Shown here: positions 85 through 20,296 of the stretch, in pieces | Numbering within the stretch: the first letter of the stretch is position 1 | Layout of the letters: each line of letters opens with the position of its first letter | Source of the DNA: Candidatus Neomarinimicrobiota bacterium | Lineage (GTDB): Bacteria; Fidelibacterota; Marinisomatia; Marinisomatales; TCS55 | Length of the DNA stretch: 20,296 nt | NCBI GenBank assembly: GCA_018651745.1 | Contig: JABIDL010000015.1 | Span: forward strand, 1 to 20,296 | Reading direction: 5' to 3' | Position numbers and translations under genes: made by a program | Notes under the pieces: model-generated | Seen by the model: only the letters and a program-made list of their open reading frames with translations | The model's database searches: none | What the model was told of the DNA's origin: nothing

Positions 85-549
85 TCATGCTTCCTGCTCT
101 TGTTTTTTATTCATGAGAGAAATGATATCCAGCTTGGACTGCAGCTCTTCACTGAACTGATTGATGTTCTTTTGTTCAAATATTTTTGAGATTTCTGTTT
201 TAGCCTTACCCCAATCATGGTGAACGGGACACGGACTTTCATCTGAACAAAATGGAAATCCAATAATACATCCTTCTAAAAATCCGTCGCCATCAATAAT
301 CCGTATAATATGATCTAATGTGATTTTGCTCCCGTTCTGATTGATGACAAATCCACCGTTGATACCTTTATGAGAAAGTATTAAATCGTGTTTAACCAAA
401 ATTTGTAAAACTTTTCCCAAAAAGTGGTTTGGGATATCCAACGCGCTTGCAATATCTCGTTGAAAAACTGGACTATTTTTTGGTTGTCCTGCTAAATACA
501 TGACCGCCTGAATGGCGTATTGCGACGATTTGGATAGTATGTTTGACAT
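85..549 (-). CDS. Rrf2-family transcriptional regulator, probably Fe-S
   Basis: This is a 154-residue Rrf2-type regulator, the usual length for the family. Residues 1-80 form the winged helix-turn-helix: an opening SSQYAIQAVMYLA helix, the recognition region around ASALDIPNHFLGKVLQIL, and a wing at KGINGGF. Three cysteines (94, 101, 107) lie in GCIIGFPFCSDESPCPVHHDW, where IscR, NsrR and RsrR bind their Fe-S cluster, so a redox or sulfur-responsive cluster is likely but inferred. The gene is the last of the minus-strand series, 151 bases after the molybdoenzyme start region, and its own upstream region carries a perfect dyad at 570-589. It may control the molybdoenzyme genes and itself. The effector is unknown. 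Confidence 0.9.
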   Translation of the reverse strand: MSNILSKSSQYAIQAVMYLAGQPKNSPVFQRDIASALDIPNHFLGKVLQILVKHDLILSHKGINGGFVINQNGSKITLDHIIRIIDGDGFLEGCIIGFPFCSDESPCPVHHDWGKAKTEISKIFEQKNINQFSEELQSKLDIISLMNKKQEQEA

Positions 550-3547: not shown

Positions 3548-3558
3548 ATTTTTATCCT

Positions 3559-3583
3559 GCCACTAAGGCACGAAGACACAAAG
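3559..3583 (+). repeat. Family A dispersed repeat, forward copy
   Basis: This is a copy of the GCCACxAAGxCACxAAGACACAAAG unit immediately upstream of the molybdoenzyme start. It is inverted relative to 3597-3622 and 4036-4062, and with the latter encloses the GxxExxY gene. Confidence 0.8.
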
Positions 3584-3596
3584 TTATTATGATTCT

Positions 3597-3622
3597 TTCT
3601 TCGTTCTTTGTTGTCTTTCTGG
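3597..3622 (-). repeat. Family A repeat, degenerate inverted copy
   Basis: This is a diverged reverse-complement copy of family A (reads CCAGAAAGACAACAAAG on the minus strand), directly after the GxxExxY stop codon. It could form a hairpin with 3559-3583. Confidence 0.6.
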
Positions 3623-3628
3623 TTATTT

Positions 3629-4030: not shown

Positions 4031-4035
4031 TTTTT

Positions 4036-4062
4036 CTTCGTGTTTTTGTGTCTTCGTGGCTA
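4036..4062 (-). repeat. Family A repeat, inverted copy
   Basis: This is a good copy of GCCACGAAGACACAAAAACACGAAG on the minus strand, between the stop of the ferredoxin/NrfD fusion gene (4065-4067) and the start of the GxxExxY gene (4030). It is inverted relative to 3559-3583. Confidence 0.8.
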
Positions 4063-4064
4063 AC

Positions 4065-5684
4065 TCAACTTAATGGTATCATTTGCGGCACACGAATCCT
4101 CACAAATTCTGTTAAATAAATTCCAATTAATGCACATCCACTCGCAATTAAAGTCATACTTGGATAATTATTCAGCAACACGATTGGCATTACACTTCCT
4201 ATCACAATTCCTGCCCAGAAATATTTGGAATAATATCCTTTTGTCATGAGCTGGATGGCTTTTTTTGTATCGGGCGTATCATGGGGCAATAAAATTTCTT
4301 TCGACATGATAATACTATTCGCAACAATGGCCCATAATAATGTATCGGCCATGGATGGAATCAATTCCGGCGATATGAACATGAGTGAAACTGTCCCTGC
4401 CATGACGGCGTGAACCAACATGTGAACGGCTGACAATTCAGTGGACTGCCATAAATCTCTCGATCGAGCTTGACCAAATAAGAACGCAGTATAAACCGCA
4501 CCAAGTATGGCAAAAATGGCACCAACTGCCCATAACCAAGTCCAACCAAGTCCAAAATAATAATCAACGAATTTCAATGTGACCAGTCCGCCAAATCCTG
4601 TAATAATGTAAGCACCACGAACCAGCCATGATTTCCACTGTGGACGAAGTAATACATATAAGAATCGATCGGGTCGATCTAAATCTTTCACTAAAAATGC
4701 ACCCGTTAATCCCATAAATATCAATGTAGTTATGAGTCCTGCCAATTCAGTGGACGGATCAATACTTCCATTTAAATATTGCCATATTGCCATCATTAAG
4801 AATGTGCCCGTGGCAATGGCTTTTGTCCAGACATAGGCAGGCACTTCCCATCCCCAAAGGACACCCTTACTTGGTGAATCATACACTCGCCGTGCTTTTT
4901 GCGAATCCATATCTTCTTGAATTTCTTTCGCTACATTATCGATGGCACGTTGGTCAATGGGTTTACCAGATCTGGCCGAATTCTCCATAGCCAATTGGAC
5001 TAATAAATTTCCCGTATCTGAATCCGCCAATCTCTGATCGGCATATTTCGCATAATGTCCCACACCCGCTGATTGCTCTGACCATAAATATTTTCCATCT
5101 CGTTCTGTAGCATTGGGATCCAACATTTCTTTCGTCCCGTTCACATAATACAAATTGGGGTCAGTCATTTTTTCCGGTTTCCGCGTCATTGTTTCTTCAT
5201 TGGCTACCAGTTGAGCAATTTTTGAATTCGTATCATCTAAATCACCGGAAACAATCGCTTCTACAGGACATACCACCACACAAGCCGGTTCGTAACCACC
5301 ATCAACACGATGGGCGCAATAATTACATTTCGCTGCAGTATTTGTATTTGGGTCGATATACAATGCATCATAGGGACACGCCTGCATGCACGATTTACAT
5401 CCGATGCAGCGATCGTTGTCAAAATCAACAATACCATCAGCTCGAGTATGAAGCGCCGTCGTTGGGCATATTTCTACACAAGGTGCATCCGCACAATGGT
5501 TGCATCTATGAACTGAAAATTCCCGAGTATTATTGGGGTATTCCCCTTTTTCAATATATTTCACATGGGTGCGATTAACACCAATAGGAACATCGTGCTC
5601 ACTTTTGCAAGCAACGGTGCAGGCATGACAGCCAATGCACATTCTATTATCTATTACAAATCCGTAATTCATATTTTTTGCCAT
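4065..5684 (-). CDS. Fused four-cluster ferredoxin and NrfD-like membrane subunit
   Basis: This 539-residue protein joins the electron-transfer and membrane subunits of a CISM complex (PsrB+PsrC, or SoeB+SoeC), which are usually separate genes. Residues 1-150 carry sixteen cysteines in four [4Fe-4S] sets: 16/19/22/26, 61/64/69/73, 93/96/99/103 and 120/123/135/139. A hydrophilic linker of about 130 residues follows. Residues 280-535 contain eight predicted membrane helices of NrfD type, with DLDRPDRFLYVLLRP between helices 2 and 3. It should pass electrons between the molybdenum subunit and the quinone pool. No Tat signal is present, so the clusters face the cytoplasm. The first ATG (5682-5684) lies inside a family A repeat with no clear ribosome binding site. 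Met5 at 5672 is an alternative start. Confidence 0.88.
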   Translation of the reverse strand: MAKNMNYGFVIDNRMCIGCHACTVACKSEHDVPIGVNRTHVKYIEKGEYPNNTREFSVHRCNHCADAPCVEICPTTALHTRADGIVDFDNDRCIGCKSCMQACPYDALYIDPNTNTAAKCNYCAHRVDGGYEPACVVVCPVEAIVSGDLDDTNSKIAQLVANEETMTRKPEKMTDPNLYYVNGTKEMLDPNATERDGKYLWSEQSAGVGHYAKYADQRLADSDTGNLLVQLAMENSARSGKPIDQRAIDNVAKEIQEDMDSQKARRVYDSPSKGVLWGWEVPAYVWTKAIATGTFLMMAIWQYLNGSIDPSTELAGLITTLIFMGLTGAFLVKDLDRPDRFLYVLLRPQWKSWLVRGAYIITGFGGLVTLKFVDYYFGLGWTWLWAVGAIFAILGAVYTAFLFGQARSRDLWQSTELSAVHMLVHAVMAGTVSLMFISPELIPSMADTLLWAIVANSIIMSKEILLPHDTPDTKKAIQLMTKGYYSKYFWAGIVIGSVMPIVLLNNYPSMTLIASGCALIGIYLTEFVRIRVPQMIPLS

Positions 5685-8941: not shown

Positions 8942-10054
8942 TCAAATTTTTTCTTCGACCCCTTGTGCCTTTGTTGCTATTTTAATTTCATTAACTCTTT
9001 TATGAATTTCAGGAAGATGTTTTACACCATTTTCATAATCTACCAATCGATTGATAAGATAAAATAAATACATACTTGTAAGCCAATTGGTGAATTCCTG
9101 TTTTGATCTCAAATGTTTTTTCATATTCAGCATCACCCAAGAAAAATGCTGCCATACATCCAGGCAGGATTCACATGAACGATCAATGCCAGTGCAACAT
9201 CGTCTTGTTGTTTTGAAATCAGAATTATACGCTCGAAAATGGGGACTGTATGGATTCCCATTTTTCATTCGATCTGCATATTCCGGTAGATTTGTGCTGA
9301 CGGTTGTGCATACATCATATCCCCATTGTTGACCATACAGTTCACCGGTGGAAATCACGTTAGTTAAATAGGATGATAAATAAATAAAATTCGGATAGCG
9401 CTGAATCACTTTATCAATTTCTTCTCTTACATTGTCAAATCCTTGACGATGATCCAAAGCACCACCCAGATTGTCTATATCACTGTAAAAATTAAACAAC
9501 ACTCTATTTCCATTCGCCACGCACTCATCCACCACCGATGCGATTTCGTGGGCATTTCCCGCAGAAACAGTATAATACCAAAAAGCTCGTGAATCATTTT
9601 TATAATTATCTAATGCAATGGAAAACAAATCACGCTTACCCTTATTTCGCAATTGTGAATCCGTTTCATGATTTCCCCAAATAGACACACCAATAGGCAT
9701 ATTTTCAAATCCATCTATTGGAATTGGAATGATGCCATTTGTAGATACATTCATTTTGAAATTGTCATAAATCTTTTTGAGTCTATCCAATCTTAAGCTG
9801 GGTTCACCCCCAACAATGGTCACAAAATTCGTCCCCCGTTCCAATTCTTTTTCAATAAATGAATCAAATTGGCTTTCGTCTGAAGGCGTTTTTACTTTAT
9901 CCATTTCTTCAGAAAAATAATAACATCCCGCACATCGGATATTGCACTCGTCCGTTAAATCCAATGAGATAGATTTCATAGCTCCTGCTTGTCGAATCTC
10001 TTTATACAGCCGATTCAAAAACGGGTCTTGAAGGTAAGGTTTTAACGAATTCAT
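8942..10054 (-). CDS. Radical SAM protein with C-terminal cysteine cluster, function unknown
   Basis: This is a 370-residue radical SAM enzyme. Cys37, Cys41 and Cys44 (CNIRCAGC) bind the SAM [4Fe-4S] cluster, and Gly-Gly-Glu-Pro at 82-85 is the SAM-binding motif. Cys286, Cys287, Cys294 and Cys297 (RRCCTGIDRSCESC) could bind an auxiliary cluster as in SPASM or twitch domains, followed by a helical tail. It differs from the LipS-like pair downstream of 13861 and from classical LipA. A peptide- or protein-modifying role is possible because the J-domain-like, TPR and 43-residue genes follow it, but nothing shows the substrate. The last 11 residues (ATKAQGVEEKI) are encoded by a family A repeat, so the native C-terminus was probably replaced. 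Confidence 0.85.
   Translation of the reverse strand: MNSLKPYLQDPFLNRLYKEIRQAGAMKSISLDLTDECNIRCAGCYYFSEEMDKVKTPSDESQFDSFIEKELERGTNFVTIVGGEPSLRLDRLKKIYDNFKMNVSTNGIIPIPIDGFENMPIGVSIWGNHETDSQLRNKGKRDLFSIALDNYKNDSRAFWYYTVSAGNAHEIASVVDECVANGNRVLFNFYSDIDNLGGALDHRQGFDNVREEIDKVIQRYPNFIYLSSYLTNVISTGELYGQQWGYDVCTTVSTNLPEYADRMKNGNPYSPHFRAYNSDFKTTRRCCTGIDRSCESCLDVWQHFSWVMLNMKKHLRSKQEFTNWLTSMYLFYLINRLVDYENGVKHLPEIHKRVNEIKIATKAQGVEEKI
8953..8979 (-). repeat. Family A repeat, inverted copy inside the 3' end of the radical SAM gene
   Basis: On the minus strand this reads TAGCAACAAAGGCACAAGGG, a diverged family A unit. It encodes the last residues of the radical SAM protein and pairs with 8903-8928. Confidence 0.65.
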
Positions 10055-10120: not shown

Positions 10121-10147
10121 TTTCCTGTTCATCCAGTTAATTCCGTC
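10121..10147 (-). repeat. Family B repeat, inverted copy supplying a stop codon
   Basis: On the minus strand this reads GACGGAATTAACTGGATGAA. The TGA stop of the preceding ligase gene (10146-10148) overlaps its first bases. Confidence 0.75.
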
Positions 10148-11114
10148 AATTTATATATTGTTTCCCAGGCAATTTATTTTCCAATTCGGAATTTCCATTA
10201 TCCAATTTTGCAGAATAAATTTTTCCATCTTCCACTCTGAAATTTCCCATTACTTTTTCCCCAGCTATATCAATTTCATCATAATGAATAAATACATTTC
10301 GGGCAATTTTTAATGGTTTTCGTTTGGATGAGCCATTCCCATCATCTATGGAATTCAAAAATGATTCTGACCGTAAAACTGCGCCGACTTGTCCCGCTCT
10401 CTCAATTTCATCAATGGTCATGCCGCCAGGATTTAGCTTCCTGCCTAAATGTATTTCATATTCGTCTATCAATTGATCTGCCAGTTTATCCATTTTGACC
10501 ATAGAACCAATGTCATCCAGCGTAATAATATGGTCTTTCATGGCTTCTTTGGCTAATGCGCGAAAGGATTCATTTGGAACACTCCACACGGATGCCATCG
10601 TGTCGAAATCAAAATCAAAAAGAATATTTCCCACCACAATGCTCGCTTCGCCTATTTGACCACCACCGATTCCAGCAACTCGTTTTCCATTCATTTCTAC
10701 TTCATGGCTTCCCACTAATTCTGCCTTTACATCAAAAAAATGTTTTAATGTATTCACGACAGGTGTTAGCATCATTTCATAAACTTTATTCGAATTTGCG
10801 GGCACACGACTTTTATGAAAAACGCATTGATAGAACAATTGGCTTGAGTCCAGATAAGTTCCACCACCGCCAACCTTCCTGCGTAAAATGGGAATCTCTT
10901 TCTCACCACAAACCTTTCGGTCAAATGTTTCATTTAACTTCTGATGATAACCTAAACAAACATAGGCGTCGGACGGTTGAGAAATGATGATGGTGTCCGG
11001 TGTATCTTCAGTCATGAGCTCTGCAACAGTGTGATACACCGCCTGCGTTTGCCATCCGGGAATCCGCCCCATGTGGATTAATCGTATAAATTTTTCGTTC
11101 ATATTTTTATTCAT
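10146..11114 (-). CDS. Lipoate-protein ligase with LplB-like tail (sLpl(AB)-like)
   Basis: This 322-residue protein is of the lipoate/biotin ligase fold. RRKVGGGGTYLD (78-89) is the RRxxGGG lipoyl-AMP-binding motif, and MNGKRVAGIGGG (141-152) aligns with the substrate loop that carries the catalytic lysine of LplA. There the position before V-A-G is Arg145, not Lys, as far as hand alignment allows. Residues about 225-322 resemble the LplB/accessory domain. Such fused ligases serve LbpA carriers in sulfur-oxidation loci together with LipS1 and LipS2, both encoded just upstream. A GGGGGA from repeat C precedes the start. Met5 is a weaker alternative. With Arg145 it may act as an octanoyl/lipoyl transferase or be non-catalytic. 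Confidence 0.85.
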   Translation of the reverse strand: MNKNMNEKFIRLIHMGRIPGWQTQAVYHTVAELMTEDTPDTIIISQPSDAYVCLGYHQKLNETFDRKVCGEKEIPILRRKVGGGGTYLDSSQLFYQCVFHKSRVPANSNKVYEMMLTPVVNTLKHFFDVKAELVGSHEVEMNGKRVAGIGGGQIGEASIVVGNILFDFDFDTMASVWSVPNESFRALAKEAMKDHIITLDDIGSMVKMDKLADQLIDEYEIHLGRKLNPGGMTIDEIERAGQVGAVLRSESFLNSIDDGNGSSKRKPLKIARNVFIHYDEIDIAGEKVMGNFRVEDGKIYSAKLDNGNSELENKLPGKQYIN

Positions 11115-11117
11115 TCC

Positions 11118-11155
11118 AAATCCCCCTATTTCCCCCTTTTCTAAAAGGGGGACTT
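11118..11155 (-). repeat. Family C hairpin repeat, left copy
   Basis: This carries a perfect 10-base stem, TCCCCCTTTT-ct-AAAAGGGGGA (11131-11152), flanked by TCCCCCTATT. It is the inverted counterpart of 11556-11586, and the two enclose the DUF559 gene. Its GGGGGA lies close upstream of the ligase start at 11114. Confidence 0.85.
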
Positions 11156-11174
11156 AAAAAGGTATATCTCAAAT

Positions 11175-11543
11175 TCATTTTTGTAATAGTTTCTTTCTTA
11201 TCCAATTTTCAATATCTTGAAGGACATATTCTAATCCCTGTTTAACTTGATTATCATCAAATCGAATCACTGTAAGACCAAGTGATTCAAGAAAATCTGT
11301 TCGCCTTTGATCTTCATTTTCTCGATCATTATGACTCTCACCATCAATTTCTATCACCAATTTTAACTTTGGGCAATAAAAGTCTACAATAAATTCACCA
11401 ATAGGTCTTTGACGATTAAATTGAAACCCCATCATTTGTTTTTGTTTTAATTGATTCCATAATAATACTTCTGACAATGTAGAATTATTCCGAAGATTTC
11501 TTGATAATTGCTTTAATTTTGGATTATAATAAATTTTAGCCAT
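11175..11543 (-). CDS. DUF559 (Vsr-like) endonuclease-domain protein
   Basis: This 122-residue protein is the usual length for DUF559, a Vsr-type PD-(D/E)XK superfamily. Asp54 in FIVDFYCP, Glu65-Ile-Asp67 in VIEIDGESH, and His71 form the expected active-site cluster, and FNRQRPIG lies before it. The C-terminal half (LGLTVIRFDDNQV) completes the fold. Genes of this family are often found singly without clear partners, and their role is not established. Here it splits the lipS1-like gene from a ligase gene and sits between two inverted family C hairpins, which argues that it arrived as a passenger. No good ribosome binding site is visible. Confidence 0.88.
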   Translation of the reverse strand: MAKIYYNPKLKQLSRNLRNNSTLSEVLLWNQLKQKQMMGFQFNRQRPIGEFIVDFYCPKLKLVIEIDGESHNDRENEDQRRTDFLESLGLTVIRFDDNQVKQGLEYVLQDIENWIRKKLLQK

Positions 11544-11555
11544 GCAACCAAATAG

Positions 11556-11586
11556 TCCCCCTTTCTAAAGGGGGATTTAGGGGGTT
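11556..11586 (+). repeat. Family C hairpin repeat, right copy
   Basis: A 9-base stem, TCCCCCTTT-ct-AAAGGGGGA (11556-11575), is followed by TTTAGGGGGTT. It is the same unit as 11118-11155 in the opposite orientation, just before the DUF559 start. Confidence 0.85.
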
Positions 11587-11613
11587 ATCAAAAAAAGATT
11601 GTGGCATTATTAT

Positions 11614-12705
11614 TTATGAAATACTTCCATTCAATTGCATTTGTTCTCGAATGACCGTTAATTCATCGCCAGTAGGTTTGAATGGATAATCCCGATATTC
11701 TTCCCCGGGACGATATGAACCATAAGGGCGATTGCAAGCCATTACCCCTTCTCGATCCGGACAGCCATTTGTCATAAACGGCAAACCTTCATTAATCGTA
11801 TTTTGGATCAATTCTTCTTCCGATTCGATGGATTTAATAAAGCCATTCGCATCAAATTGAAATACATCCTGATCCACATTTTTTTCTTCGATGAGATGTT
11901 TTGCCAACTGGACACGGCGATGGCGTTTTATCGGTTGGCGTGTTTGATCTTGTAAAGTGGTGCCAGGTTCAGGGTTAAACGAAAATAAATAACCCGCGAT
12001 TTCTTCAGATTTCAATCGATAAAACATATCTACCAAATCTCGATCTGTTTCTCCAAGCCCTACAATCAAATGACAATTCACATTCATAGGACCATAAATC
12101 TTCCGAGCCGCTCGAACCATTTCCCAATGGTATTCCCAATCATGGGGACCGCTGGCTTCTTTTCCACGGGTTTTAATAAATAATTCTTCGGTCACCGCAT
12201 CCAAGCCATATCCGATAATGTCTATGCCTTCTTCCTTCAATTGCTTCAAAAATGGCACATTCATTGTAGTGGCATTCACCAATCCGGATAAAGGAACATC
12301 TGGTGCAGCCGAATGAACTTTTCGCGTAATTTCAATCAAATCATTATTCGCCCGATGATCCTGCACTTGAGAAATACAGACGCGCCCAACCGTGCTTTCT
12401 GCTTCTTTTTCCGCAATCTTTTCGGCGATTAGATCTGTAGAAAACAAAGGCCAATCCACACGGATAAAACTATTTTCTTCAGCTAATCCAGGACGTTCTC
12501 TTGCTAATCCACAATAACTGCAATTAGCAAAACAGCCTTCCGGATAATTTTGAAGCAAATTGATACATCCACAGCCACAGCCGTGAATTCGACCCGGTTT
12601 AAGCCCCAATTCTATAGCAGCCGCCATACTAATCCGCACATAATCCGGACTAATATTTAACAATTCTGCTTGTTCTTGTGATGATAATTTTAATTGTTCG
12701 TTCAT
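11614..12705 (-). CDS. lipS1: Radical SAM lipoyl synthase component, LipS1-like
   Basis: This is a 363-residue radical SAM protein of the biotin/lipoyl synthase type. Cys58, Cys62 and Cys65 (CFANCSYC) bind the SAM cluster. An upstream HGCGCGC motif adds Cys43, Cys45 and Cys47, and a C-terminal NGCPDREGVMACNRPYG adds Cys315 and Cys324. Together these could hold the second, sacrificial [4Fe-4S] cluster that donates sulfur. In the LipS1/LipS2 pathway two such proteins jointly insert the two sulfurs into octanoyl groups, replacing single-chain LipA. The LipS2-like gene immediately upstream and the ligases and GcvH-like carrier nearby support this role. AAGGAAG precedes the ATG. The symbol rests on motifs and context; the 1/2 labels could be swapped. 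Confidence 0.75.
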   Translation of the reverse strand: MNEQLKLSSQEQAELLNISPDYVRISMAAAIELGLKPGRIHGCGCGCINLLQNYPEGCFANCSYCGLARERPGLAEENSFIRVDWPLFSTDLIAEKIAEKEAESTVGRVCISQVQDHRANNDLIEITRKVHSAAPDVPLSGLVNATTMNVPFLKQLKEEGIDIIGYGLDAVTEELFIKTRGKEASGPHDWEYHWEMVRAARKIYGPMNVNCHLIVGLGETDRDLVDMFYRLKSEEIAGYLFSFNPEPGTTLQDQTRQPIKRHRRVQLAKHLIEEKNVDQDVFQFDANGFIKSIESEEELIQNTINEGLPFMTNGCPDREGVMACNRPYGSYRPGEEYRDYPFKPTGDELTVIREQMQLNGSIS

Positions 12706-12719
12706 ATCTTCCTTTTTTT

Positions 12720-12746
12720 GACAGGATTAACGGGATTTACAAGATG
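12720..12746 (+). repeat. Family B repeat, forward copy
   Basis: This reads GACAGGATTAACGGGATTTA, just upstream of the lipS1-like start. It forms an inverted pair with 12818-12845. Confidence 0.85.
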
Positions 12747-12817
12747 TCTAAAAAGAAATGTCATTTTCTTTATGACCATTCTATTCTAATCCCAAGTCTG
12801 TTTTTTTAAACTATTTT

Positions 12818-12845
12818 AATCCTGTTTTATCCTGTTATCCTGTCC
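12818..12845 (-). repeat. Family B repeat, inverted copy
   Basis: On the minus strand this reads GGACAGGATAACAGGATAAA, directly after the lipS2-like stop codon. Its partner is 12720-12746. Confidence 0.85.
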
Positions 12846-12853
12846 ATATTTAT

Positions 12854-13861
12854 TTACCAAGTAACGCCACAGCAGGCATTAATAAATGATGGTTCTAATC
12901 CTTTTTCTTTCGCATATCCCACGATGCCTTCTGATGGAAATGCAATTCCGTTCAATCCGGCATTTATGGCGGATTTATCGATGTCAATTTTCATATTCCC
13001 TAATGGGCGGGCACATCCCAATAATATTGGCGTTGTTGGTAGCGATAATCTTGCTGTTTCAAAAAACTCACCAATTTCATCCATGGATGGGGGAACGACA
13101 CCTTCCATGCCCGTGCCTGTAAGCGGTAATAAAATCACCAGCACTAAAATCTTCGGTGGAACCTTTTTGATTATATCCAAAGCTGCCCATTCACCATTCA
13201 TTTTCCCGAAATAATGTCCCAAAACAATGTGGGGAATGGCAGGAATTTTGTGGTGTTGTAATCGCGCCAACACCGCTTCGTAATCAGACGGTGATGCATC
13301 TAAATGATAGACATCAGAAATGGTTTCCTGGTCGCCAATAATATCCAGCATTACACCATCCACGCCCACATCTGCCAATGCTTTACACGTTTCTTCGTTT
13401 GGCAAGCCGGGATGAACCCGAATTACCATTCCCAATTCACTGCGAATGCGTTTCATATCGTCTATATGCTGAAGTAATGGCACTTGATTTTTAATATTAC
13501 TTCCACCGGAAACTAAAATTCCTTTTGCACCTTTATTCTTTAAATCCTTTGCCATATCAAACAGGCTCCCGCCAAATGAAGGTAAATCCAACATATTGTC
13601 CAACATTTTGGTATTACAGTGTTCGCAACTCAGCGCACATTTATTTCCCGTAACGCTGATGGAAACAAACTCTTTCAAGGAACCGGAAAATTCAGATGTA
13701 GAATGTGGTTTTAGTCCGGGACCGTAAAAAGTAATCTCATTTGGAAAATTTTCTTTTCTTATTTCAAAAGGGGTCTGGACAGGATTAACTGGATGAACAG
13801 GATTTTCACCATTTAGATTATTGGATTGGTGGATTGGTGGATTGATGGTAGTGTTATTCAT
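12854..13861 (-). CDS. lipS2: Radical SAM lipoyl synthase component, LipS2-like
   Basis: This is a 335-residue radical SAM protein. Cys75, Cys79 and Cys82 (CALSCEHC) bind the SAM cluster. Cys283 in LGCARPLG and Cys330-Cys331 near the C-terminus (INACCGVTW) are candidate ligands for the sulfur-donating cluster. It is encoded just before the LipS1-like protein, and together they should convert octanoyl to lipoyl groups on the nearby carrier. The ATG overlaps the TGA of the preceding lipoprotein gene (ATGA), so translation is probably coupled. Residues 5-15 and 19-28 are encoded by a tandem octamer and a family B repeat, so the first 30 residues look acquired. No ATG, GTG or TTG lies between them and the conserved region beginning near residue 33. 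Confidence 0.75.
   Translation of the reverse strand: MNNTTINPPIHQSNNLNGENPVHPVNPVQTPFEIRKENFPNEITFYGPGLKPHSTSEFSGSLKEFVSISVTGNKCALSCEHCNTKMLDNMLDLPSFGGSLFDMAKDLKNKGAKGILVSGGSNIKNQVPLLQHIDDMKRIRSELGMVIRVHPGLPNEETCKALADVGVDGVMLDIIGDQETISDVYHLDASPSDYEAVLARLQHHKIPAIPHIVLGHYFGKMNGEWAALDIIKKVPPKILVLVILLPLTGTGMEGVVPPSMDEIGEFFETARLSLPTTPILLGCARPLGNMKIDIDKSAINAGLNGIAFPSEGIVGYAKEKGLEPSFINACCGVTW
13778..13806 (+). repeat. Family B repeat inside the lipS2-like gene
   Basis: This is a GACAGGATTAACTGGATGAA copy read antisense by the lipS2-like gene, where it encodes ENPVHPVNPVQ (about residues 19-28). No inverted partner is adjacent. Confidence 0.85.
13818..13848 (+). repeat. Tandem octamer repeat inside the lipS2-like gene
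   Basis: There are three consecutive copies of GGATTGGT (13823-13846, the last ending in AT) preceded by TTATT. On the coding strand they give INPPIHQSNN. A related CCAATAATCCAG string lies at 16657-16685. Confidence 0.75.
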
Positions 13862-14958
13862 TTCACTCTAATTTTTGTTTTCATAATTCTTGGTTTAGTT
13901 TTACTATAATCTTCGAAATAAATATGCTCTTTATCAAAACCTAACGGCCATCCAGGCAATTGTATTTCGCCATAGTATTTTTCCAAATCTTTGGAATAAA
14001 CCTGACACCAATATTCATTTTTCAGTTGATTTTCATTTTGCACGATAATTTCATCTGACCATGGATTTTTCATTTGAAAATTGTTTTTATAAATGGTCAA
14101 TATATAATTCTGATATTCAAAAATACGATGCATGGACGATTTACCATTCATCCATTCAAATAAATTTGACAAATCACCACGACAGAAATAATCTTCGGTA
14201 AATCCTTTTACGACAGGTGTAAAGTGAGTCCCCTTAACACCCGCCATTCCTTGAAAATCGAAATTTAAATTATATTTCCGGATGTAAGGTGAAATACCTA
14301 CAAATTGAAAAATCTTGTCATCAACAAAAATGGAACGGCTGTAATCTAATACTGAATAGCCATTGAGATATTCTTTTGGTAAAAAAGTCCCCTTTGAAAT
14401 TCTTTTCATCTTTGGGAATGTAAATGTATTTAACAATGATTTCTTTGTTACATCTGCACCCCAATATTCAAGACTATCCGAACCGGAAATAATAAATGTA
14501 GAATCGTTTACAAAATAAAAATTACTCCCTGTAATAACAAAATCATCATCAAAATCAGCCCAAACTCCCAGATATTTTCCGCGTTCATCGTATTCTGTAA
14601 TATTATGACTTGTGATATTTGGAATTAAGACATGGTCATTTTTTTGTATCAAAACATTTGTTATGCCATGTGTAGAAAATTCATTATGTATAGCGTGTAG
14701 CTTTTTGCCGAACTTATCAAAAACATGGACGGTTTCATTCGTATGATCAGCAATATAAATACGGTTATTTTTCCCAAAATGAAATGTTCTGAATTGTTGC
14801 TTTATCCATTTTGGTTCTTCAATTTTTGTGAATCCTATCTTCTCTAATAATATTTTATTATCATCAGAAATTTGTAAATATGATGCACAAGAAAAATTCA
14901 GAATTATCGCTATAAAAAGAAATGAGTATTTGAATCGTATTTTGACAATATGTTGCAT
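13858..14958 (-). CDS. Lipoprotein, propeller-like, paralogue of 15537-16598
   Basis: This is an exported lipoprotein of 366 residues from Met at 14958. That start gives a proper signal peptide ending in a lipobox-like LNFSCAS. A start 60 bases further up (15018) would add 20 residues overlapping the antitoxin promoter. The body has repeated strands of the kind seen in 6-bladed beta-propeller lipoproteins, for example NRIYIADHTNETVHVFDKFGKKLHAI. Its last 50 or so residues (YWCQVYSKDLEKYYGEIQLP onward) are nearly identical to the paralogue while the rest has diverged. Its TGA overlaps the ATG of the lipS2-like gene. The ligand and role are unknown. Being cell-envelope proteins, the pair are not obvious lipoate-assembly factors. 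Confidence 0.8.
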   Translation of the reverse strand: MQHIVKIRFKYSFLFIAIILNFSCASYLQISDDNKILLEKIGFTKIEEPKWIKQQFRTFHFGKNNRIYIADHTNETVHVFDKFGKKLHAIHNEFSTHGITNVLIQKNDHVLIPNITSHNITEYDERGKYLGVWADFDDDFVITGSNFYFVNDSTFIISGSDSLEYWGADVTKKSLLNTFTFPKMKRISKGTFLPKEYLNGYSVLDYSRSIFVDDKIFQFVGISPYIRKYNLNFDFQGMAGVKGTHFTPVVKGFTEDYFCRGDLSNLFEWMNGKSSMHRIFEYQNYILTIYKNNFQMKNPWSDEIIVQNENQLKNEYWCQVYSKDLEKYYGEIQLPGWPLGFDKEHIYFEDYSKTKPRIMKTKIRVK

Positions 14959-15016
14959 TGTGTTGCGTATTGTTACTATATGTAGTAATTTGTCCATATC
15001 AATAAAAGGATTAACC
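14942..15016 (+). promoter_or_regulatory. Probable promoter/operator of the toxin-antitoxin pair
   Basis: TTGACA at 14942-14947 is followed by AT-rich sequence without an ideally spaced -10 (TATTGT at 14968 or TACTAT at 14974). Two dyads lie here: ACAATA...TATTGT (outer ends 14945-14973) and ACTA-TATG-TAGT (14975-14986). Type II antitoxins often bind such sites. An AAAAGGA ribosome binding site is at 15004-15010. Confidence 0.35.
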
Positions 15017-15250
15017 ATGGGTCAACATGCCATCAGAATCGATTCTGAATTATTTAAAACAGCAAAATCTACTGCCGATGTAGAACATCGGTCTGTGCCG
15101 AAACAGATTGAATATTGGGCAAAAATCGGACGCATTTCTATCGAGAACCCTGATTTATCATACAAAATGATTCACGATATTTTGCTGGGACTGTCTCAAG
15201 CAGAAAATGGCGAAACGGAAGACTACAATTTTGGCTCGTTCGAAGATTAA
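15017..15250 (+). CDS. ParD-like antitoxin
   Basis: This is a 77-residue protein of the ParD-like antitoxin family. The N-terminus (MGQHAIRIDSELFKTAKSTA) forms the ribbon-helix-helix start, and RSVPKQIEYWAKIGR is the family signature. The C-terminal half (about 45-77) is acidic and should wrap the toxin. ATG at 15017 was chosen because AAAAGGA precedes it and conservation begins there; an upstream in-frame extension to 14828 runs antisense through the lipoprotein gene. Its 3' end overlaps the toxin gene by 44 bases. It is probably an autorepressor with the toxin. It is one of only two clear plus-strand genes here. Confidence 0.85.
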   Translation: MGQHAIRIDSELFKTAKSTADVEHRSVPKQIEYWAKIGRISIENPDLSYKMIHDILLGLSQAENGETEDYNFGSFED

Positions 15251-15518
15251 AGTTCGAGCTACGCCTTTGTTTAAAAGGCAGGCAAAAAAATTGTTTAAGC
15301 ATACCAAGAAAGAATTGGATGAGCAAATAAAGGCTATAATTAAAAACCCAACAATTGGTGACAGAAAACATGGTGATTTGGCTGATGTTTTTGTTCATAA
15401 GTTTAAAATTAAAACGAATTTGTTTTTGCTTGCATATACTTTTGACCCTAAAACCAGAACCTTAATCATGATTGGTTCTCATGAAAATTTTTATAGAGAT
15501 TTGAAAAAATATAGATAG
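15207..15518 (+). CDS. RelE/ParE-family toxin
   Basis: This is a 103-residue basic protein of the RelE/ParE toxin superfamily. It shows the opening helices ATPLFKRQAKKLFKHTKKEL, the strand segment KIKTNLFLLAYTFDPKTRTLIMIG, and the closing SHENFYRDLKKYR typical of the toxins paired with ParD-like antitoxins. The target (ribosome-bound mRNA or gyrase) cannot be told from sequence. The start at 15207 overlaps the antitoxin by 44 bases. The product begins MAKRKTT, and a later start near the conserved part is possible. The pair is inserted, on the opposite strand, between two paralogous lipoprotein genes. Confidence 0.85.
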   Translation: MAKRKTTILARSKIKVRATPLFKRQAKKLFKHTKKELDEQIKAIIKNPTIGDRKHGDLADVFVHKFKIKTNLFLLAYTFDPKTRTLIMIGSHENFYRDLKKYR

Positions 15519-15536
15519 GGTAATTCCTTAACATTT

Positions 15537-16598
15537 TCATTTCACTCTGATTTTTGTTTTCATAATTCTTGGTTTCTTTTTACTCAAATCTCTGAAATAG
15601 ATATAATGAGAATCTCTTCCGATAGGCATTTCCGGCAATTGAATTTCACCGTAGTATTTTTCCAAATCTTTGGAATAAACCTGACACCAATATTTGTCAC
15701 CATCTTCAAAGACTTCACGATACAAAACGCAGGAATAATTTCCATGTTCAAATAAATCTATTGTGCGAGAATTACGCATAATCCAGTTTTGGAATGATTC
15801 TCCATCTTTGTCAAAATCCCAATATCCAAAATTGGGCTTATTTTCTAAATCTCCCAATTTATAATGCTCGCCCTGCACGCCTTTATTTCCCACATATTCC
15901 AAATCAAGATTTAATTCTCTTACAAAAGGTGATGTTGCCACAATATAAAAAAGACTACTGTCCACCATAATGGATTTAGAAAAAGCCCATGTCATTCCAC
16001 CGCCATCATAACCTGGACCAATTGAACCCCCAAGCGTTTGAAAATCTGTTTCGGGGTATTGAAACTTACCAAAAAGCATTTGATTTTTCCCAATCCATCC
16101 ATGACCGGAAACAATCAATAGACTATCCGAAAGGATATGAATATTATGACCATAAGGTGAATACTTTTGGCTTTCCCTAAAATTCCAATACCATTTATCT
16201 GTTATTTTCCCATTCTTTTCAAAAATAAGAAAACCAAGATCCAATCTAAAATCTTCATTATTTGTAAAATATTCTCCAATAATGTTGTCACCATGGAACA
16301 AATGTAATTCTCCCAAATGTTTATAAAATATATCAGGACTTGTATCAAAAACCTTCTTCCCCTTCTTATTAAACCCAACAATTTCTTGACTATTTCCTTT
16401 CCAGATATACACATTCCCGTTATCTAAAAATGAAATGGATGTGTGGTATTGATTTAATAGTTCCGGTTCTTCAATTTTCCAAATTCCATCTTTTTTTAAT
16501 AATATCTTACCGTTATCAGAAGTTGATAGTGTTCCAAGAGAAATGCAGCCCGAAAACATCAGCGCCGTTAAAATTGCAATTGGTAATATTTTTCTCAT
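15537..16598 (-). CDS. Lipoprotein, propeller-like, paralogue of 13858-14958
   Basis: This is a 353-residue lipoprotein with signal MRKILPIAILTALMFSGC and lipobox cysteine Cys18. The mature part has repeated beta segments (for example NGNVYIWKGNSQEIVGFNKKGKKVF) like its paralogue. The last 50 or so residues are almost identical to that copy at protein level, and the DNA is also close to identical in patches such as 15658-15694. This points to a recent duplication or gene conversion limited to the 3' end. A GAGATAAG lies before the ATG, and a family E hairpin lies 12 bases further up. The function is unknown. Confidence 0.82.
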   Translation of the reverse strand: MRKILPIAILTALMFSGCISLGTLSTSDNGKILLKKDGIWKIEEPELLNQYHTSISFLDNGNVYIWKGNSQEIVGFNKKGKKVFDTSPDIFYKHLGELHLFHGDNIIGEYFTNNEDFRLDLGFLIFEKNGKITDKWYWNFRESQKYSPYGHNIHILSDSLLIVSGHGWIGKNQMLFGKFQYPETDFQTLGGSIGPGYDGGGMTWAFSKSIMVDSSLFYIVATSPFVRELNLDLEYVGNKGVQGEHYKLGDLENKPNFGYWDFDKDGESFQNWIMRNSRTIDLFEHGNYSCVLYREVFEDGDKYWCQVYSKDLEKYYGEIQLPEMPIGRDSHYIYFRDLSKKKPRIMKTKIRVK

Positions 16599-16609
16599 TC
16601 TTATCTCAT

Positions 16610-16639
16610 CTTTGCGAAAGTTTTTTTACTTCCGCAAAG
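16610..16639. repeat. Family E palindrome, intergenic copy
   Basis: CTTTGCG/CGCAAAG outer and AAGT/ACTT inner stems surround a T loop. It is the same palindrome type as 17220-17252, here in the spacer between the ligase and lipoprotein genes. A TTTTGTTTTT run follows on the plus strand, but no plus-strand gene ends here. The rest of the spacer holds CCAATAATCCAG-like repeats (16657-16685). Confidence 0.75.
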
Positions 16640-16692
16640 TTTTGTTTTTCCAAACATCCAATAATCCAGTAATACATTATTCCAGTTTTTCT

Positions 16693-17844
16693 TCATTCCT
16701 TTTCTCCAACTGTTTGCCCCGGCGATACAAAACAGCCATATGGATCAGAAGATGTTTTTCGTGCCATTATTTCTGCTTTTTGAATGGCGGACGACAGAGC
16801 TTTGATTAAAGATTCTATTGGTAAATTTGCTAAATCGCCTGACCAGCGTTCATACACTTGAGACAAAGTTTCGTGGAGAGATGATTCCTGGCTTGAATGC
16901 CAGCGCAAACTTTGCTCTAAATCTGCAATGGCATGTTCTGATGTAAAAAAGTCCCCGCCGATGAAAGCTGATTTTATCATTTTCCCCGCAAGCACAATGC
17001 GAATATCTAGAAGACCACCTTCGGTTTTAATAATAGATTTTCCGATTGCGTCTGCCACATCTGTAGATTGGAATATCCAATTTGAATCCATGTATTTATC
17101 TTTTTCTAATTGACGAATTTCATTCATCTCACCGTCGGTATAATCACTTAATTCTATATTGACATCAAAAGCACTTTTATATCCATTTAGAATAGTTTTT
17201 CGAATCTCATTCAAGGTTAAACTTTGCGGAAGTTTAAAACTTGCGCAAAGTTCTCGTCGAACCGTTGTTGTTCTTTCTCCCACAGTAGCAATTTCTTTAT
17301 CAGATATTTTTTCGAAGGGTGTTTGTAAAACATTGAGCATATAAGCCACATCTAAATCCACTAATAAAGATGCATGAAATAACAATCCGCCAGTAGCTGT
17401 TTTATGCAAACCCAATCCGGCGATCTTTAACCCATTAACTTCTAAATCATTCTTACGGCGAAATTCAACTTTGATTCCTAACGTGTTCAACCCGGATATT
17501 ATTCCTTGGGAAAATTGTGACATTCGTTCTCGAACACTGGCATACGATTCATCGGATTTCCCCGGTATTGCCAAAGCTACACCTAATTGGTTTTCCCCCA
17601 TGATGATGGCACCACCGCCGGTTGGTCTTCGGTTAACAGGGATTTTATTTTGAGCGCAGTAATCCAAATTCAATTCATTTTCAATCGTCTGGAATCGCCC
17701 TACCAATGCGCATGGTTGGTATGTATAAAGTCGAAGTGTGGGTAGAGATGTGCCGGTGCCAACTCGCGTAGCGAGCACTTCATCCGCAGCCAATCCAGCG
17801 GATGCAGTTACACGGTTATTTTCAATATACCGCCAAGTGTTCAC
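16693..17844 (-). CDS. Lipoate-protein ligase with LplB-like tail, second copy
   Basis: This is a 383-residue ligase of the LplA fold with a C-terminal accessory domain. RRPTGGGAIIMG (72-83) is the lipoyl-AMP motif. VNGLKIAGLGLHKTA (136-150) is the substrate loop, with Lys140 at the catalytic position. Residues about 255-345 resemble the LplB region. The GTG start overlaps the stop of the GcvH-like carrier gene (GTGA), so it should be made together with its substrate, which it would load with lipoate or octanoate. Residues 198-209 (ELCASFKLPQSL) are encoded by a near-perfect palindrome of family E and may be an inserted segment. It is only distantly related to the ligase at 10146-11114. Confidence 0.87.
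   Translation of the reverse strand: MNTWRYIENNRVTASAGLAADEVLATRVGTGTSLPTLRLYTYQPCALVGRFQTIENELNLDYCAQNKIPVNRRPTGGGAIIMGENQLGVALAIPGKSDESYASVRERMSQFSQGIISGLNTLGIKVEFRRKNDLEVNGLKIAGLGLHKTATGGLLFHASLLVDLDVAYMLNVLQTPFEKISDKEIATVGERTTTVRRELCASFKLPQSLTLNEIRKTILNGYKSAFDVNIELSDYTDGEMNEIRQLEKDKYMDSNWIFQSTDVADAIGKSIIKTEGGLLDIRIVLAGKMIKSAFIGGDFFTSEHAIADLEQSLRWHSSQESSLHETLSQVYERWSGDLANLPIESLIKALSSAIQKAEIMARKTSSDPYGCFVSPGQTVGEKE
17220..17252. repeat. Family E palindrome inside a ligase gene
   Basis: This 33-base near-perfect palindrome pairs AACTTTGCG with CGCAAAGTT and AAGTTT with AAACTT around a single central A, with one mismatch. It lies wholly within the ligase reading frame and matches the intergenic copy at 16610-16639. 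Confidence 0.88.
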
Positions 17845-18275
17845 CCAGCCATGCCTTGGGTTTCAAATCGTTCTATTTCAGATTCCATCCATCCGGGTAG
17901 CGCATCACCAGAGACCATCGCACTTGATTCTTCTGCCCAATTAGCAGGTTCAATTTTAATCAACCACCCCTTTTCAAAAGGGTCTTCGTTTATCAACAAC
18001 GGATTTTGCAATACAGCATCATTTTGTTCAACAACAATTCCTGAAATTGGGGCGAAAAGTTCACCTGTCATTTTTGCCGCTTCCATGGAACCCATGACTT
18101 TCCCCATTTCTATGGGCGTTCCTACAGCCGGTAGAGTTAAATAAGCCATTTCGCCCAGGGAATCCAAACCCAATTCATCCATGCCAATAGTTATGCGTCC
18201 ATCTTCTTCTTGTTTAGACCAAAGATGGTTGCTGTTGTAAAAACGATCGGATTCAAAGTTAAATTGTTTCTTCAT
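17841..18275 (-). CDS. lbpA: GcvH-like lipoate-binding protein (LbpA-like)
   Basis: This is a 144-residue single-domain lipoyl carrier. The lipoyl lysine is Lys68 in GSMEAAKMTGELFAPISG, aligned with VESVKAA in GcvH, and EDPFEKGWLIKIEP is the conserved later part of the fold. No glycine cleavage P, T or L protein gene is nearby. It lies between an HdrD-like gene and a GTG-overlapping ligase gene, with LipS1/LipS2-like genes further on. That setting fits the LbpA carriers of sHdr sulfur oxidation better than a housekeeping GcvH. AGGA precedes the ATG. The role as carrier for an oxidised sulfur or other intermediate is inference; a spare GcvH is the alternative. Confidence 0.8.
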   Translation of the reverse strand: MKKQFNFESDRFYNSNHLWSKQEEDGRITIGMDELGLDSLGEMAYLTLPAVGTPIEMGKVMGSMEAAKMTGELFAPISGIVVEQNDAVLQNPLLINEDPFEKGWLIKIEPANWAEESSAMVSGDALPGWMESEIERFETQGMAG

Positions 18276-18290
18276 AATTTTCCTATTTTA

Positions 18291-18316
18291 GACGGGATAA
18301 CAGGATTGACAAGATA
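18291..18316 (+). repeat. Family B repeat, forward copy
   Basis: This reads GACGGGATAACAGGATTGAC, upstream of the lipoyl carrier start. It forms an inverted pair with 18355-18384. Confidence 0.8.
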
Positions 18317-18352
18317 TTAATTTTAGCTTTTCTATTTTTAGTTTTTAATTTT

Positions 18353-20296
18353 TTAATTATCCTGTTCATCCTGTAATCCTGTCAATTTTTCTTCAGGTAA
18401 ATCCATTGCTTCAAGAACAAAATCAATAATATCCTTCACCGCCATCGTATCTTCATTTCCCGATGTTTTTGCTGCATCCGCATACATGGTCATATCTTTT
18501 GGACAGGCCACAGTAAAATTATTTACACCAACTGCGACAGCTTCTTCAATCCGATTCTCACTGGGACGTTGGGTCATATCATCATGATCCGGCAACCATA
18601 TTTGTCCACCACCGGCACCACAACAAAAGCTATTTTCTTTATTTCGCGGCATTTCTACCAAGTCGATTCCACATAGTTTCATCACATCGCGGGGATCATC
18701 ATAGATACCATTGTATCGCCCTAAATAACAGGGATCGTGATAGGTCGCTTTAATATCCAATTTTTTCTTCAGCTCAATATCGCCATTTTTGATGAGTTCC
18801 AACAATAATGTGGAATAATGTTTCACGGGATAATTCCCACCCCTTTCTGGATATTCATTTTTCAATGAATTAAATGTATGGGGATCGGTGGTAAAAATTT
18901 CTTCAAATTCGCATTTTTCAATCGTTTCTATATTTTGTTCTGCCAGAACGTCAAATAGTCCTTCTTCACCAACACGTCGCACATCATTTCCTGCAGATTT
19001 TTCCTTTTTTCCCATGATACCAAAGTCCACACCGGCGGCCGTTAATACTTCTGCAACCTTCCGAGTGGTATCCTGACAATTCTGATTAAAACTGGCGAAA
19101 TCACCGACATACCAAAGATATTTCACCGGTTCCTTTGTGGCATCTTTCAGTTTAAAATCTAATTTTTTAGACCATTTTGAACGACGGCGAGCTGACTCAT
19201 TAAATGAATTTCCCTGTTCATCCAAACTGCGTAATACATCGGCCAATTCGTCGGGCATTTTTGCATCAAATACTTGATTTCTCCGCAGTTCCAGAATATC
19301 CATCATGGGCTCATTCCCAACAGGACACACTTCCACGCAAGCGTAGCATGTGGTACAGGCCCACATTGCATCTTCCGAAATAGCATATTCCAGCAATGAT
19401 GTTTTGCCAGCCCCGTTAAATAGACCGTTCCCCTGCTCGTTGATAAAATACCGTTTATTGATTTCCAGAGCCGACGGACTCAATGGCGTTCCACTTTCGT
19501 GCGCCGGACACACTTCATGGCAACGGGTACACATAATACACGCCCATGAATCCAGCACTTGGGGCCAAGGTAAATCGGATAATGTTTTTGAACCGGGTGA
19601 TGCGGAATTGGTAATGCCATCCATGGCACCCCGAGCCGTTCTGCGACCCAATGCCAAATTTACCGGTGCAATCATGAGATGGATATGTTTCGAGCGTGGA
19701 AAATATGGCAGGAACATAACAATGAGCCCCATGGCCAACCACCAGGTTACATGAATCCCCGTTTCCAATGATGCATGAGACCAATTTGAGAACATCCCAG
19801 ACATGATACTGGCCGTAGGAAGCCATGAATCTGTATGACCATTTTCAGCCAAATGCATAGCCGTTCCCAACCAACGTGAGCCCACATGAATAAGAATAAA
19901 AATACCCACAATGAGTGAATCTTTTTTCAATCCGCCGGCACTAACACCGGGATGCAATTTCACATTTGCATTAAATTCCATAACTTTGGGTTTTTGAACA
20001 AAACGTCGATACAAAAAGAATACCATCCCAACCAAAACAAATACACTAAAAATATCCGCAAATACATTAAACAAATTTGCAAAAATATTATCACTTCCAA
20101 TTGTGGTCCAACCTGGAACAAATGCTTCCAAAATATCATTCACATTCACCAAGAGATAAAAACTAAATCCAAAGAAAATAAATGAATGAAACATGGATAC
20201 AATGGGACGTGCTTTGGCAATGGGCTTTTGCAGAAATACATCAATCAAGGCAGTAATAAACCGCCCAATGAGATTATCACTTCTATCTGCATTTGC
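18353..20296 (-). CDS. Membrane-bound HdrD-like Fe-S oxidoreductase (NarI-HdrD fusion), 5' end outside the window
   Basis: The frame is open to the window edge: 16 codons without a stop precede the TTG at 20248, so the true start lies outside. Numbering from that TTG, residues 12-180 hold four or more membrane helices with histidines 21, 121, 132 and 166, as in NarI-type haem b domains. Two [4Fe-4S] sites follow: Cys237/240/243/247 and Cys298/301/304/308. The second CCG domain is intact (Cys507, Cys542-Cys543, Cys582). The first has lost its cysteines (Asp383, Ala419, Asp455, Thr458 in their places). It should exchange electrons with quinone. EMO (EtfAB:menaquinone oxidoreductase) and DsrMK/Hdr-like roles are both possible. 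The C-terminal LTGLQDEQDN comes from a family B repeat. Confidence 0.85.
   Translation of the reverse strand, partial: ANADRSDNLIGRFITALIDVFLQKPIAKARPIVSMFHSFIFFGFSFYLLVNVNDILEAFVPGWTTIGSDNIFANLFNVFADIFSVFVLVGMVFFLYRRFVQKPKVMEFNANVKLHPGVSAGGLKKDSLIVGIFILIHVGSRWLGTAMHLAENGHTDSWLPTASIMSGMFSNWSHASLETGIHVTWWLAMGLIVMFLPYFPRSKHIHLMIAPVNLALGRRTARGAMDGITNSASPGSKTLSDLPWPQVLDSWACIMCTRCHEVCPAHESGTPLSPSALEINKRYFINEQGNGLFNGAGKTSLLEYAISEDAMWACTTCYACVEVCPVGNEPMMDILELRRNQVFDAKMPDELADVLRSLDEQGNSFNESARRRSKWSKKLDFKLKDATKEPVKYLWYVGDFASFNQNCQDTTRKVAEVLTAAGVDFGIMGKKEKSAGNDVRRVGEEGLFDVLAEQNIETIEKCEFEEIFTTDPHTFNSLKNEYPERGGNYPVKHYSTLLLELIKNGDIELKKKLDIKATYHDPCYLGRYNGIYDDPRDVMKLCGIDLVEMPRNKENSFCCGAGGGQIWLPDHDDMTQRPSENRIEEAVAVGVNNFTVACPKDMTMYADAAKTSGNEDTMAVKDIIDFVLEAMDLPEEKLTGLQDEQDN
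18355..18384 (-). repeat. Family B repeat, inverted copy forming the 3' end of the HdrD-like gene
   Basis: On the minus strand this reads TTGACAGGATTACAGGATGA and encodes the last ten residues of the HdrD-like protein. Its partner is 18291-18316. Confidence 0.8.

Follow-up and report, generated by a model that had tools for sequence, protein, structure and literature searches.

A lipoate-assembly module and a distinct GcvH-fold carrier in a type II sHdr-LbpA sulfur-oxidation island of Candidatus Neomarinimicrobiota

The stretch of Ca. Neomarinimicrobiota DNA that we analyzed (20,296 bases; hereafter the window) encodes a GcvH-like lipoyl carrier, two ligase-fold proteins and two radical SAM proteins next to an HdrD-like membrane protein (Table 1), and as a preliminary description had reported, there are no gcv genes in it. 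The locus raises the question of which lipoyl protein such a gene set would serve, and of whether the membrane protein takes the place of the soluble sHdrABC proteins in sulfur oxidation, as that description had proposed.

Table 1. Features of the window, with the basis for each assignment
Feature	Position	Strand	Basis or remark
Rrf2-family regulator adjoining the molybdoenzyme, possible regulator	85..549	-	domain searches
Molybdopterin catalytic subunit, 948 aa, candidate sulfite-oxidising (Soe-like) or psrA-like	701..3547	-	domain searches; conserved in island
Fused Fe-S/NrfD subunit, 539 aa, of complex iron-sulfur molybdoenzyme (Soe/Psr-like)	4065..5684	-	domain searches; conserved in island
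Conserved radical SAM protein, role unassigned	8942..10054	-	neighbour of lip genes in most relatives, also in other phyla
Lpl2, ligase-fold paralogue, 322 aa, Arg at catalytic Lys position	10146..11114	-	domain search and clade alignment
LipS2, radical SAM sulfur insertase	11614..12705	-	NCBIfam top match LipS2, E 2.6e-59
LipS1, radical SAM sulfur insertase	12854..13861	-	NCBIfam LipS1 237.1 bits, cut-off 230
Window-specific insert between lpl1 and lipS1	13862..16692	.	lpl1/lipS1 adjacent or overlapping in relatives
Two paralogous ORFs within insert	13858-15018; 15537-16598	- (both)	
ParD/ParE-like pair within insert	15017-15518	+	
Lpl1, lipoate/octanoate-protein ligase, 383 aa, candidate carrier-specific ligase	16693..17844	-	Pfam LplA-B_cat and Lip_prot_lig_C
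GcvH-fold lipoyl carrier, 144 aa, Lys68, no cysteine	17841..18275	-	Pfam GCV_H E 1.8e-32; own clade
EMO/EtfD-like membrane ETF:menaquinone oxidoreductase, C-terminal 647 aa	18353..20296	-	EtfD homology
Exact overlap with start of contig G000:C23	20156..20296	.	141 bases

The window and its adjoining contig

The window is a whole contig, and its last 141 bases are identical to those with which contig C23 of this genome begins, with a single open reading frame, that of the membrane HdrD-like protein, spanning the join. Continuing from the overlap, the gene order on C23 is etfA, etfB, shdrB3, shdrH, shdrA, shdrB1, shdrC1, trx, lbpA, dsrE, dsrE2 and tusA; both the sHdr and the etfAB genes sought beyond position 20,296 were found there, together with tusA, two dsrE genes and a canonical LbpA. 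The identical order occurs on single contigs in five relatives, and synteny with the window genes was kept in eight relatives within the phylum, which rules out chance as the source of the gene grouping. As published, type II sHdr is defined by shdrC1B1AHB3 plus etfAB within one cluster (PMC6067878, PMC11582611), and this set is present here across C23 and the contig join, and entirely on single contigs in the five relatives. The window holds the downstream section of a type II sHdr-LbpA sulfur-oxidation island, and a complete cytoplasmic sulfur-oxidation island is now placed in Neomarinimicrobiota, which has no mention in the type II sHdr cluster literature that we compared (PMC6067878, PMC11582611). 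Like the type II (group III) clusters of those papers, the island combines shdrC1B1A-H-B3 with etfAB, tusA/dsrE and an LbpA having N- and C-terminal Cys; it differs from them in the third carrier class, which lacks the Cys pair and adjoins the lip genes, and in holding an altered second ligase, an EMO and a molybdoenzyme in a single island. The insert between lpl1 and lipS1 is not part of the lipoate module, because in relatives these two genes lie side by side or overlap.

The membrane protein and the proposed flow of sulfur and electrons

The HdrD-like gene adjacent to the carrier gene was confirmed. The end of the contig truncates it on the 5' side, and with the start codon on C23 (L004:246) its product has a full length of 682 aa. 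The NarI part ascribed to it did not hold up, in that the window part of the protein had no match to Pfam NarI at E<0.001 and its homology is to EtfD, the best solved relative being M. smegmatis EtfD (PDB 9ojn, E 2.6e-76), which has a five-helix b-haem domain. Among its homologues, haem His72 is kept in 47 (with one gap) and His241 in 48/48, as are the eight [4Fe-4S] Cys, and etfBA is adjacent in the island. By this homology the protein is an EtfD/EMO-type ETF:menaquinone oxidoreductase predicted to accept electrons from EtfAB, rather than the Hdr partner first suggested, and it probably forms the exit to quinone in type II sHdr. It shares with M. smegmatis EtfD (PMC13083937) the membrane b-haem domain, two [4Fe-4S] domains and the second CCG cluster, and additionally adjoins etfAB; however, all four Cys of the D1 linear cluster are gone in 48/48 homologues (503D, 538S/N, 581D, 584T/S), the D2 position C712 is replaced by Asp, and the protein would serve sHdr rather than beta-oxidation. 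The quinone exit of type II sHdr would then be an EtfD relative uniformly without the ligands of one Fe-S cluster. The proposal that a membrane NarI-HdrD fusion replaces soluble sHdrABC had as its sole support the lack of shdr genes inside the window, and it is scarcely tenable given the shdrC1B1AHB3 and etfBA genes directly upstream on C23, the same order in relatives, and the loss of the first CCG-cluster ligands, which is unlike a catalytic HdrD.

From the gene content we infer that TusA, the DsrE proteins and LbpA would relay sulfane sulfur to a soluble sHdr complex of C1, B1, A, H and B3. Taking H. denitrificans as the model, this complex would produce sulfite, with electrons passing from sHdr to EtfAB, then to the membrane EMO/EtfD-like protein and to menaquinone. 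The sulfite would probably be oxidised by the adjacent molybdoenzyme with its fused FeS/NrfD subunit, for which we found no solved close relative. In make-up this enzyme resembles the Marinimicrobia psrABC (PMC5688066, PMC8359478) of the same phylum and habitat, which likewise combine a PsrA-like molybdoenzyme with an FeS part and an NrfD part; here, in contrast, these two parts form one fused protein, encoded within an oxidative sHdr island. The Neomarinimicrobiota "psr" genes had left sulfur reduction versus oxidation in oxygen-minimum waters undecided (PMC8359478); for the "psr-like" molybdoenzyme of the island, sequence and linkage suggest sulfur oxidation rather than reduction, a direction that sequence does not settle.

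Lipoate-assembly enzymes and their carrier

The LipS-like Cys patterns noted in the two radical SAM proteins were borne out. LipS1 has its CX3CX2C at C75/C79/C82, and its C283, C330 and C331 align with auxiliary-cluster Cys of T. kodakarensis LipS1; LipS2 has a CX3CX2C at 58, and LipS2 is its best NCBIfam match, at 201 bits and so below the curated cut-off of 270. Of the "two fused ligases" first described, Lpl1 stands as a likely ligase: it has both LplA and LplB-type domains, retains the ND..K motif and belongs to a clade with the catalytic Lys in 32/32; its gene shares 4 bases with the carrier gene. The other is instead an altered paralogue, Lpl2, from a clade that is present in several phyla and in which Arg replaces the catalytic Lys in 16/16. 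Lpl2 has a shortened C-terminal domain, an AF2 model (pLDDT 81) whose top fold match is the bipartite archaeal ligase 3r07, and, judged by eye, no conserved Cys at a LipL-like site; it may be an ATP-independent transferase, or an altered or inactive ligase.

Housekeeping LipA, LipB, GcvH and GcvP are encoded elsewhere in the genome (GcvP on C37, canonical GcvH on C2). The evidence supports a LipS1/LipS2 module dedicated to lipoate assembly that stands apart from the genome's own housekeeping LipB/LipA and GcvH and is tied, as initially proposed, to sHdr-LbpA sulfur oxidation. Taking the type II island, the EMO reading and this module jointly, we hold the resulting picture with good confidence. 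The module agrees with sLpl(AB)-LipS1/LipS2 assembly (PMC10332631; T. kodakarensis LipS1/LipS2, PMC9585515) in having LipS1, LipS2 and an LplA+LplB ligase in one operon, and differs in having two ligase-fold proteins (one with Lys changed to Arg) and its own carrier; no LipT was seen among the island genes (no LipT model was searched), and the LipT reductase is absent in about half of LipS1/S2 bacteria (PMC10332631).

The lipoyl Lys of the GcvH-like carrier is residue 68, as first described, and is invariant across 20 aligned carriers; the AF2 model of the carrier has a pLDDT of 95. In a phylogeny set beforehand as the refuting check, the carrier did not group with GcvH; the trees, which lack type I LbpA/LipS, gave three separate groups, with support of 97/93 for the carrier clade, 98/95 for LbpA and 100/98 for GcvH. 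An A. ferrooxidans plasmid locus was rejected as a type I reference, being an orphan HdrB plus GcvH and not a type I cluster. LbpA is marked by two conserved Cys, N- and C-terminal (PMC6067878); this pair is absent from the window carrier and occurs in 0 members of the 32-row carrier clade, and among nine carriers from the phylum one (G194) carries one Cys, at a non-LbpA site. The conserved lipoyl Lys of the supposed LbpA-like carrier was confirmed, but we rejected its identity as LbpA proper, since both LbpA cysteines are missing, the clade is separate and a genuine LbpA sits on C23. The carrier clade spans many phyla, and its members adjoin lipS1/lpl genes in 31/32 cases, the remaining case being cut by a contig end, and EMO in only 9/32. 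Judged by sequence, the carrier is a separate third class of GcvH-fold carrier, distinct from LbpA and GcvH and tied to LipS1/S2 assembly in many phyla; the class is apparently undescribed, as we found no description in the literature.

Possible roles of the carrier and of Lpl2

The role that we tentatively favor for the carrier, as the most likely one, is that of a dedicated lipoyl-assembly carrier or hub. Lpl1 would octanoylate or lipoylate the carrier encoded beside its gene, LipS2 and LipS1 would insert the two sulfurs so that lipoate gets built on this carrier, and Lpl2 would act on LbpA, possibly via lipoyl transfer from the carrier. The specific form of a previously undescribed relay, in which Lpl1, LipS2 and LipS1 build lipoate on the Cys-poor carrier and Lpl2, its adenylating lysine lost, then moves it to LbpA, strikes us as doubtful; if true, it would be another route for lipoate assembly. 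Such a relay would resemble the B. subtilis LipM-GcvH-LipL lipoyl relay in tying a GcvH-fold carrier to a set of ligase-fold enzymes, and would differ from it in that LipS1/S2 replace LipA and the LipL-type Cys was not seen. A hub is not needed in principle, since in type I systems one sLpl(AB) acts directly on LbpA (PMC10332631), and as the Bacteroidota Lpl2 retains the catalytic Lys, transfer cannot be the general rule in Bacteroidota.

Among the genomes tested, each carrier-positive one had at least two strong Lpl matches, and the carrier-negative ones had at most one intact; LipS1-positive genomes without the carrier mostly had a single fused ligase. On an sHdrB1 tree the carrier changed four or more times, with the second Lpl tracking it in 4/4 resolvable pairs, a number on which a sign test cannot reach significance.

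Alternatively, the Cys-poor carrier may itself work in type II sHdr as a second lipoyl protein, its lipoyl arm shuttling sulfur or electrons between LbpA/sHdr and EtfAB/EMO; its place among the lip genes would then reflect that it is their main substrate. At least two LbpA-type carriers are present in most sHdr organisms (PMC6067878), and this one lies inside the sHdr island, adjoining EMO in 9/32 cases and shdrB3 in 16/32; however, its constant neighbours are the assembly genes and not sHdr genes, it is missing the Cys pair of the sulfur-handling LbpA, and type II sHdr genomes without the carrier exist, both with and without LipS1. As for Lpl2, the Arg and the shortened C-terminal domain would fit a drifting, inactive paralogue, with Lpl1 lipoylating carrier and LbpA alike, but we consider this unlikely given that Lpl2 is kept across several phyla with a uniform Arg and shows 84-92% overall conservation in near relatives. 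A spare GcvH for glycine cleavage or one-carbon metabolism would match the carrier's fold, its few or no Cys and the GcvP on C37 without an adjacent gcvH, but is very improbable, as we rejected identity with GcvH given the genome's own canonical GcvH and the placement outside the GcvH clade, and the carrier is found among lip/sHdr genes in many phyla.

A type II sHdr island across two contigs

The window spans contig C15 from end to end. The first 141 bases of C23, another contig of the same genome, were identical to the last 141 bases of the window in the same orientation, an exact overlap consistent with an assembly k-mer. The ORF for the HdrD-like membrane protein (EMO) crosses this join up to an ATG and encodes 682 residues. 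Upstream of it on C23 we found, in order, etfA, etfB, sHdrB3 (a fused HdrC-HdrB protein), a protein at the HdrH position, sHdrA, sHdrB1, sHdrC1, a thioredoxin-like protein, the lipoyl carrier LbpA, two DsrE-type proteins (one the DsrE2 equivalog) and TusA. Both the sHdr and the etfAB genes that the preliminary description had proposed to look for past position 20296 were thus present, and the island formed by C23 and the window is a type II sHdr system by the published definition. The complete order was seen on a single contig in five relatives and its visible parts agree in two more; in genome G192 the carrier-lpl1-lipS1-lipS2-lpl2-rSAM unit runs divergently to the other island genes. These findings therefore refute the model in which a membrane HdrD replaces sHdrABC. 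LipS1 is encoded in 9 of 245 genomes from this phylum. Relatives that carry a name assign the genome to Candidatus Neomarinimicrobiota; a sHdrB1 with 100% identity occurs in MAG SI037_bin27 (a Saanich-type isolate name).

The GcvH-fold carrier with Lys68, LipS1, LipS2 and the HdrD-like protein were all confirmed in the sequence and, like two ligase-fold proteins, lie on the minus strand. Lpl1 has both ligase domains and the ND..K motif, but the second proposed ligase, Lpl2, has Arg where solved ligases have the catalytic Lys. LipS1 passed its curated cut-off; LipS2 fell below its own and had no better match than LipS2. LipA, GcvH and GcvP are encoded elsewhere in the genome, and so is LipB, together with genes for dihydrolipoyl dehydrogenase and pyruvate dehydrogenase, as expected if the island's lipoate module is dedicated. 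Every functional statement made here is based on homology and gene order.

In relatives lpl1 and lipS1 are adjacent or overlapping; here a toxin-antitoxin pair and two paralogous ORFs separate them. The radical SAM protein (rSAM), of unassigned role, adjoins the lip genes or the island both in Candidatus Neomarinimicrobiota and in loci from Acidobacteriota, Calditrichota and Bacteroidota, at 59-90% identity. Small ORFs with a nuclease fold (one DUF559 and two PDDEXK_3) are inserted between operon genes within the island.

Coordinates of features in the window and in compared loci
Feature	Location	Positions	Strand
Psr/Soe-like molybdoenzyme with fused FeS-NrfD subunit, within the sHdr island	window	701-5684	
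Small nuclease-fold ORF	window	3629-4030	
rSAM	window	8942-10054	-
Lpl2	window	10146-11114	-
Small nuclease-fold ORF	window	11175-11543	
LipS2	window	11614-12705	-
LipS1	window	12854-13861	-
ParD/ParE-like pair and two paralogous ORFs (no Pfam match)	window	13862-16692	
Lpl1	window	16693-17844	-
Carrier	window	17841-18275	-
EMO (5' end on C23)	window	18353-20296	-
Small nuclease-fold ORF	L004 (C23 side)	3687-4058	
Divergent LbpA-like protein	L152	4569-5057	
Divergent LbpA-like protein	L054	18258-18752	
Orphan sHdrB1-like protein and GcvH	L147	13491-17194	
Extra CCG-domain-like protein	L014/L015 (G105), joined	25818-27101	

Carrier class and the ligase-fold proteins

The carrier had been called LbpA-like. 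In a tree of 115 GcvH-fold proteins (type I and archaeal references were left out of our trees) it fell in a supported group of its own (97/93), apart from LbpA (98/95) and also from GcvH (100/98), the grouping that would have spoken against a dedicated carrier. LbpA members have both of the Cys, one N-terminal and one C-terminal, that have been described as diagnostic of LbpA. This pair is missing from the carrier group, in which 24 of 32 members are devoid of Cys altogether. Its gene adjoins lipS1 or an lpl gene in 31/32 cases (a contig end terminates the other), EMO in 9/32 and shdrB3 in 16/32; the constant partners of the carrier are therefore the assembly genes. We found no description of this class in the open-access papers searched. 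A further divergent LbpA-like protein, with a LEAAKWLG motif and C-terminal CVHC, adjoins a thioredoxin-like gene in two loci, and a plasmid of A. ferrooxidans has a GcvH and an sHdrB1-like orphan (51% identity) between hemerythrin genes.

Among the type II genomes examined, every carrier-positive genome had at least two strong Lpl matches and every carrier-negative genome at most one; in carrier-negative G262 the lip operon also holds a broken lpl fragment. LipS1-positive genomes without the carrier mostly have one ligase of 535-555 residues (Pfam DUF116 match checked in one). On the sHdrB1 tree the carrier changed at least four times, the second Lpl changing along each time, a number too small for significance. 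The Lpl1 and Lpl2 clades are separate, with Lys in 32/32 and Arg in 16/16 rows, respectively, and Bacteroidota have a different second ligase that keeps the Lys and whose gene adjoins LbpA. Together, the pairing, the Lys/Arg split and the Bacteroidota ligase suggest that Lpl1 serves the carrier and Lpl2 serves LbpA. A relay between Lpl1/carrier and Lpl2/LbpA is a hypothesis that we hold to be less likely than not. Type II sHdr genes also occur in Euryarchaeota/Poseidoniales MAGs from several studies (L043, L045, L046, L050; L157, L161); in two such genomes that were examined, the carrier is absent and the ligase is a fused one, with DUF116 confirmed for L157.

EMO and the molybdoenzyme

By far the best solved relative of EMO was M. 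smegmatis EtfD (9ojn, E 2.6e-76), which has been described as wiring ETF to menaquinone. Because etfBA adjoins the gene and given this homology, EMO likely passes EtfAB electrons to menaquinone. The haem His, eight cubane-cluster Cys and most D2 ligands are kept in 48 sHdr-linked EMO homologues, in which D2 C712 is Asp and the four D1 Cys are replaced by Asp, Ser/Asn, Asp and Thr/Ser. Electrons would enter EMO via D2, not D1.

In every relative with a contig long enough to cover this part, the island includes the molybdopterin protein (948 residues here) and the fused FeS/NrfD protein; among 80 named type II loci, 16 have one or both within the retrieved sequence. Their linkage points to a sulfite-oxidising direction, which, if true, would take oxidation all the way to sulfate. 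Published work has either read the PsrABC of Candidatus Neomarinimicrobiota as reductive or left its direction open; a Psr/Soe-like enzyme inside an sHdr island suggests a possible oxidative role for the Marinimicrobia 'psr' genes. In one relative (G105), an extra CCG-domain-like protein of 427 residues (23% to EMO) is encoded between a TPR gene and the molybdoenzyme genes.
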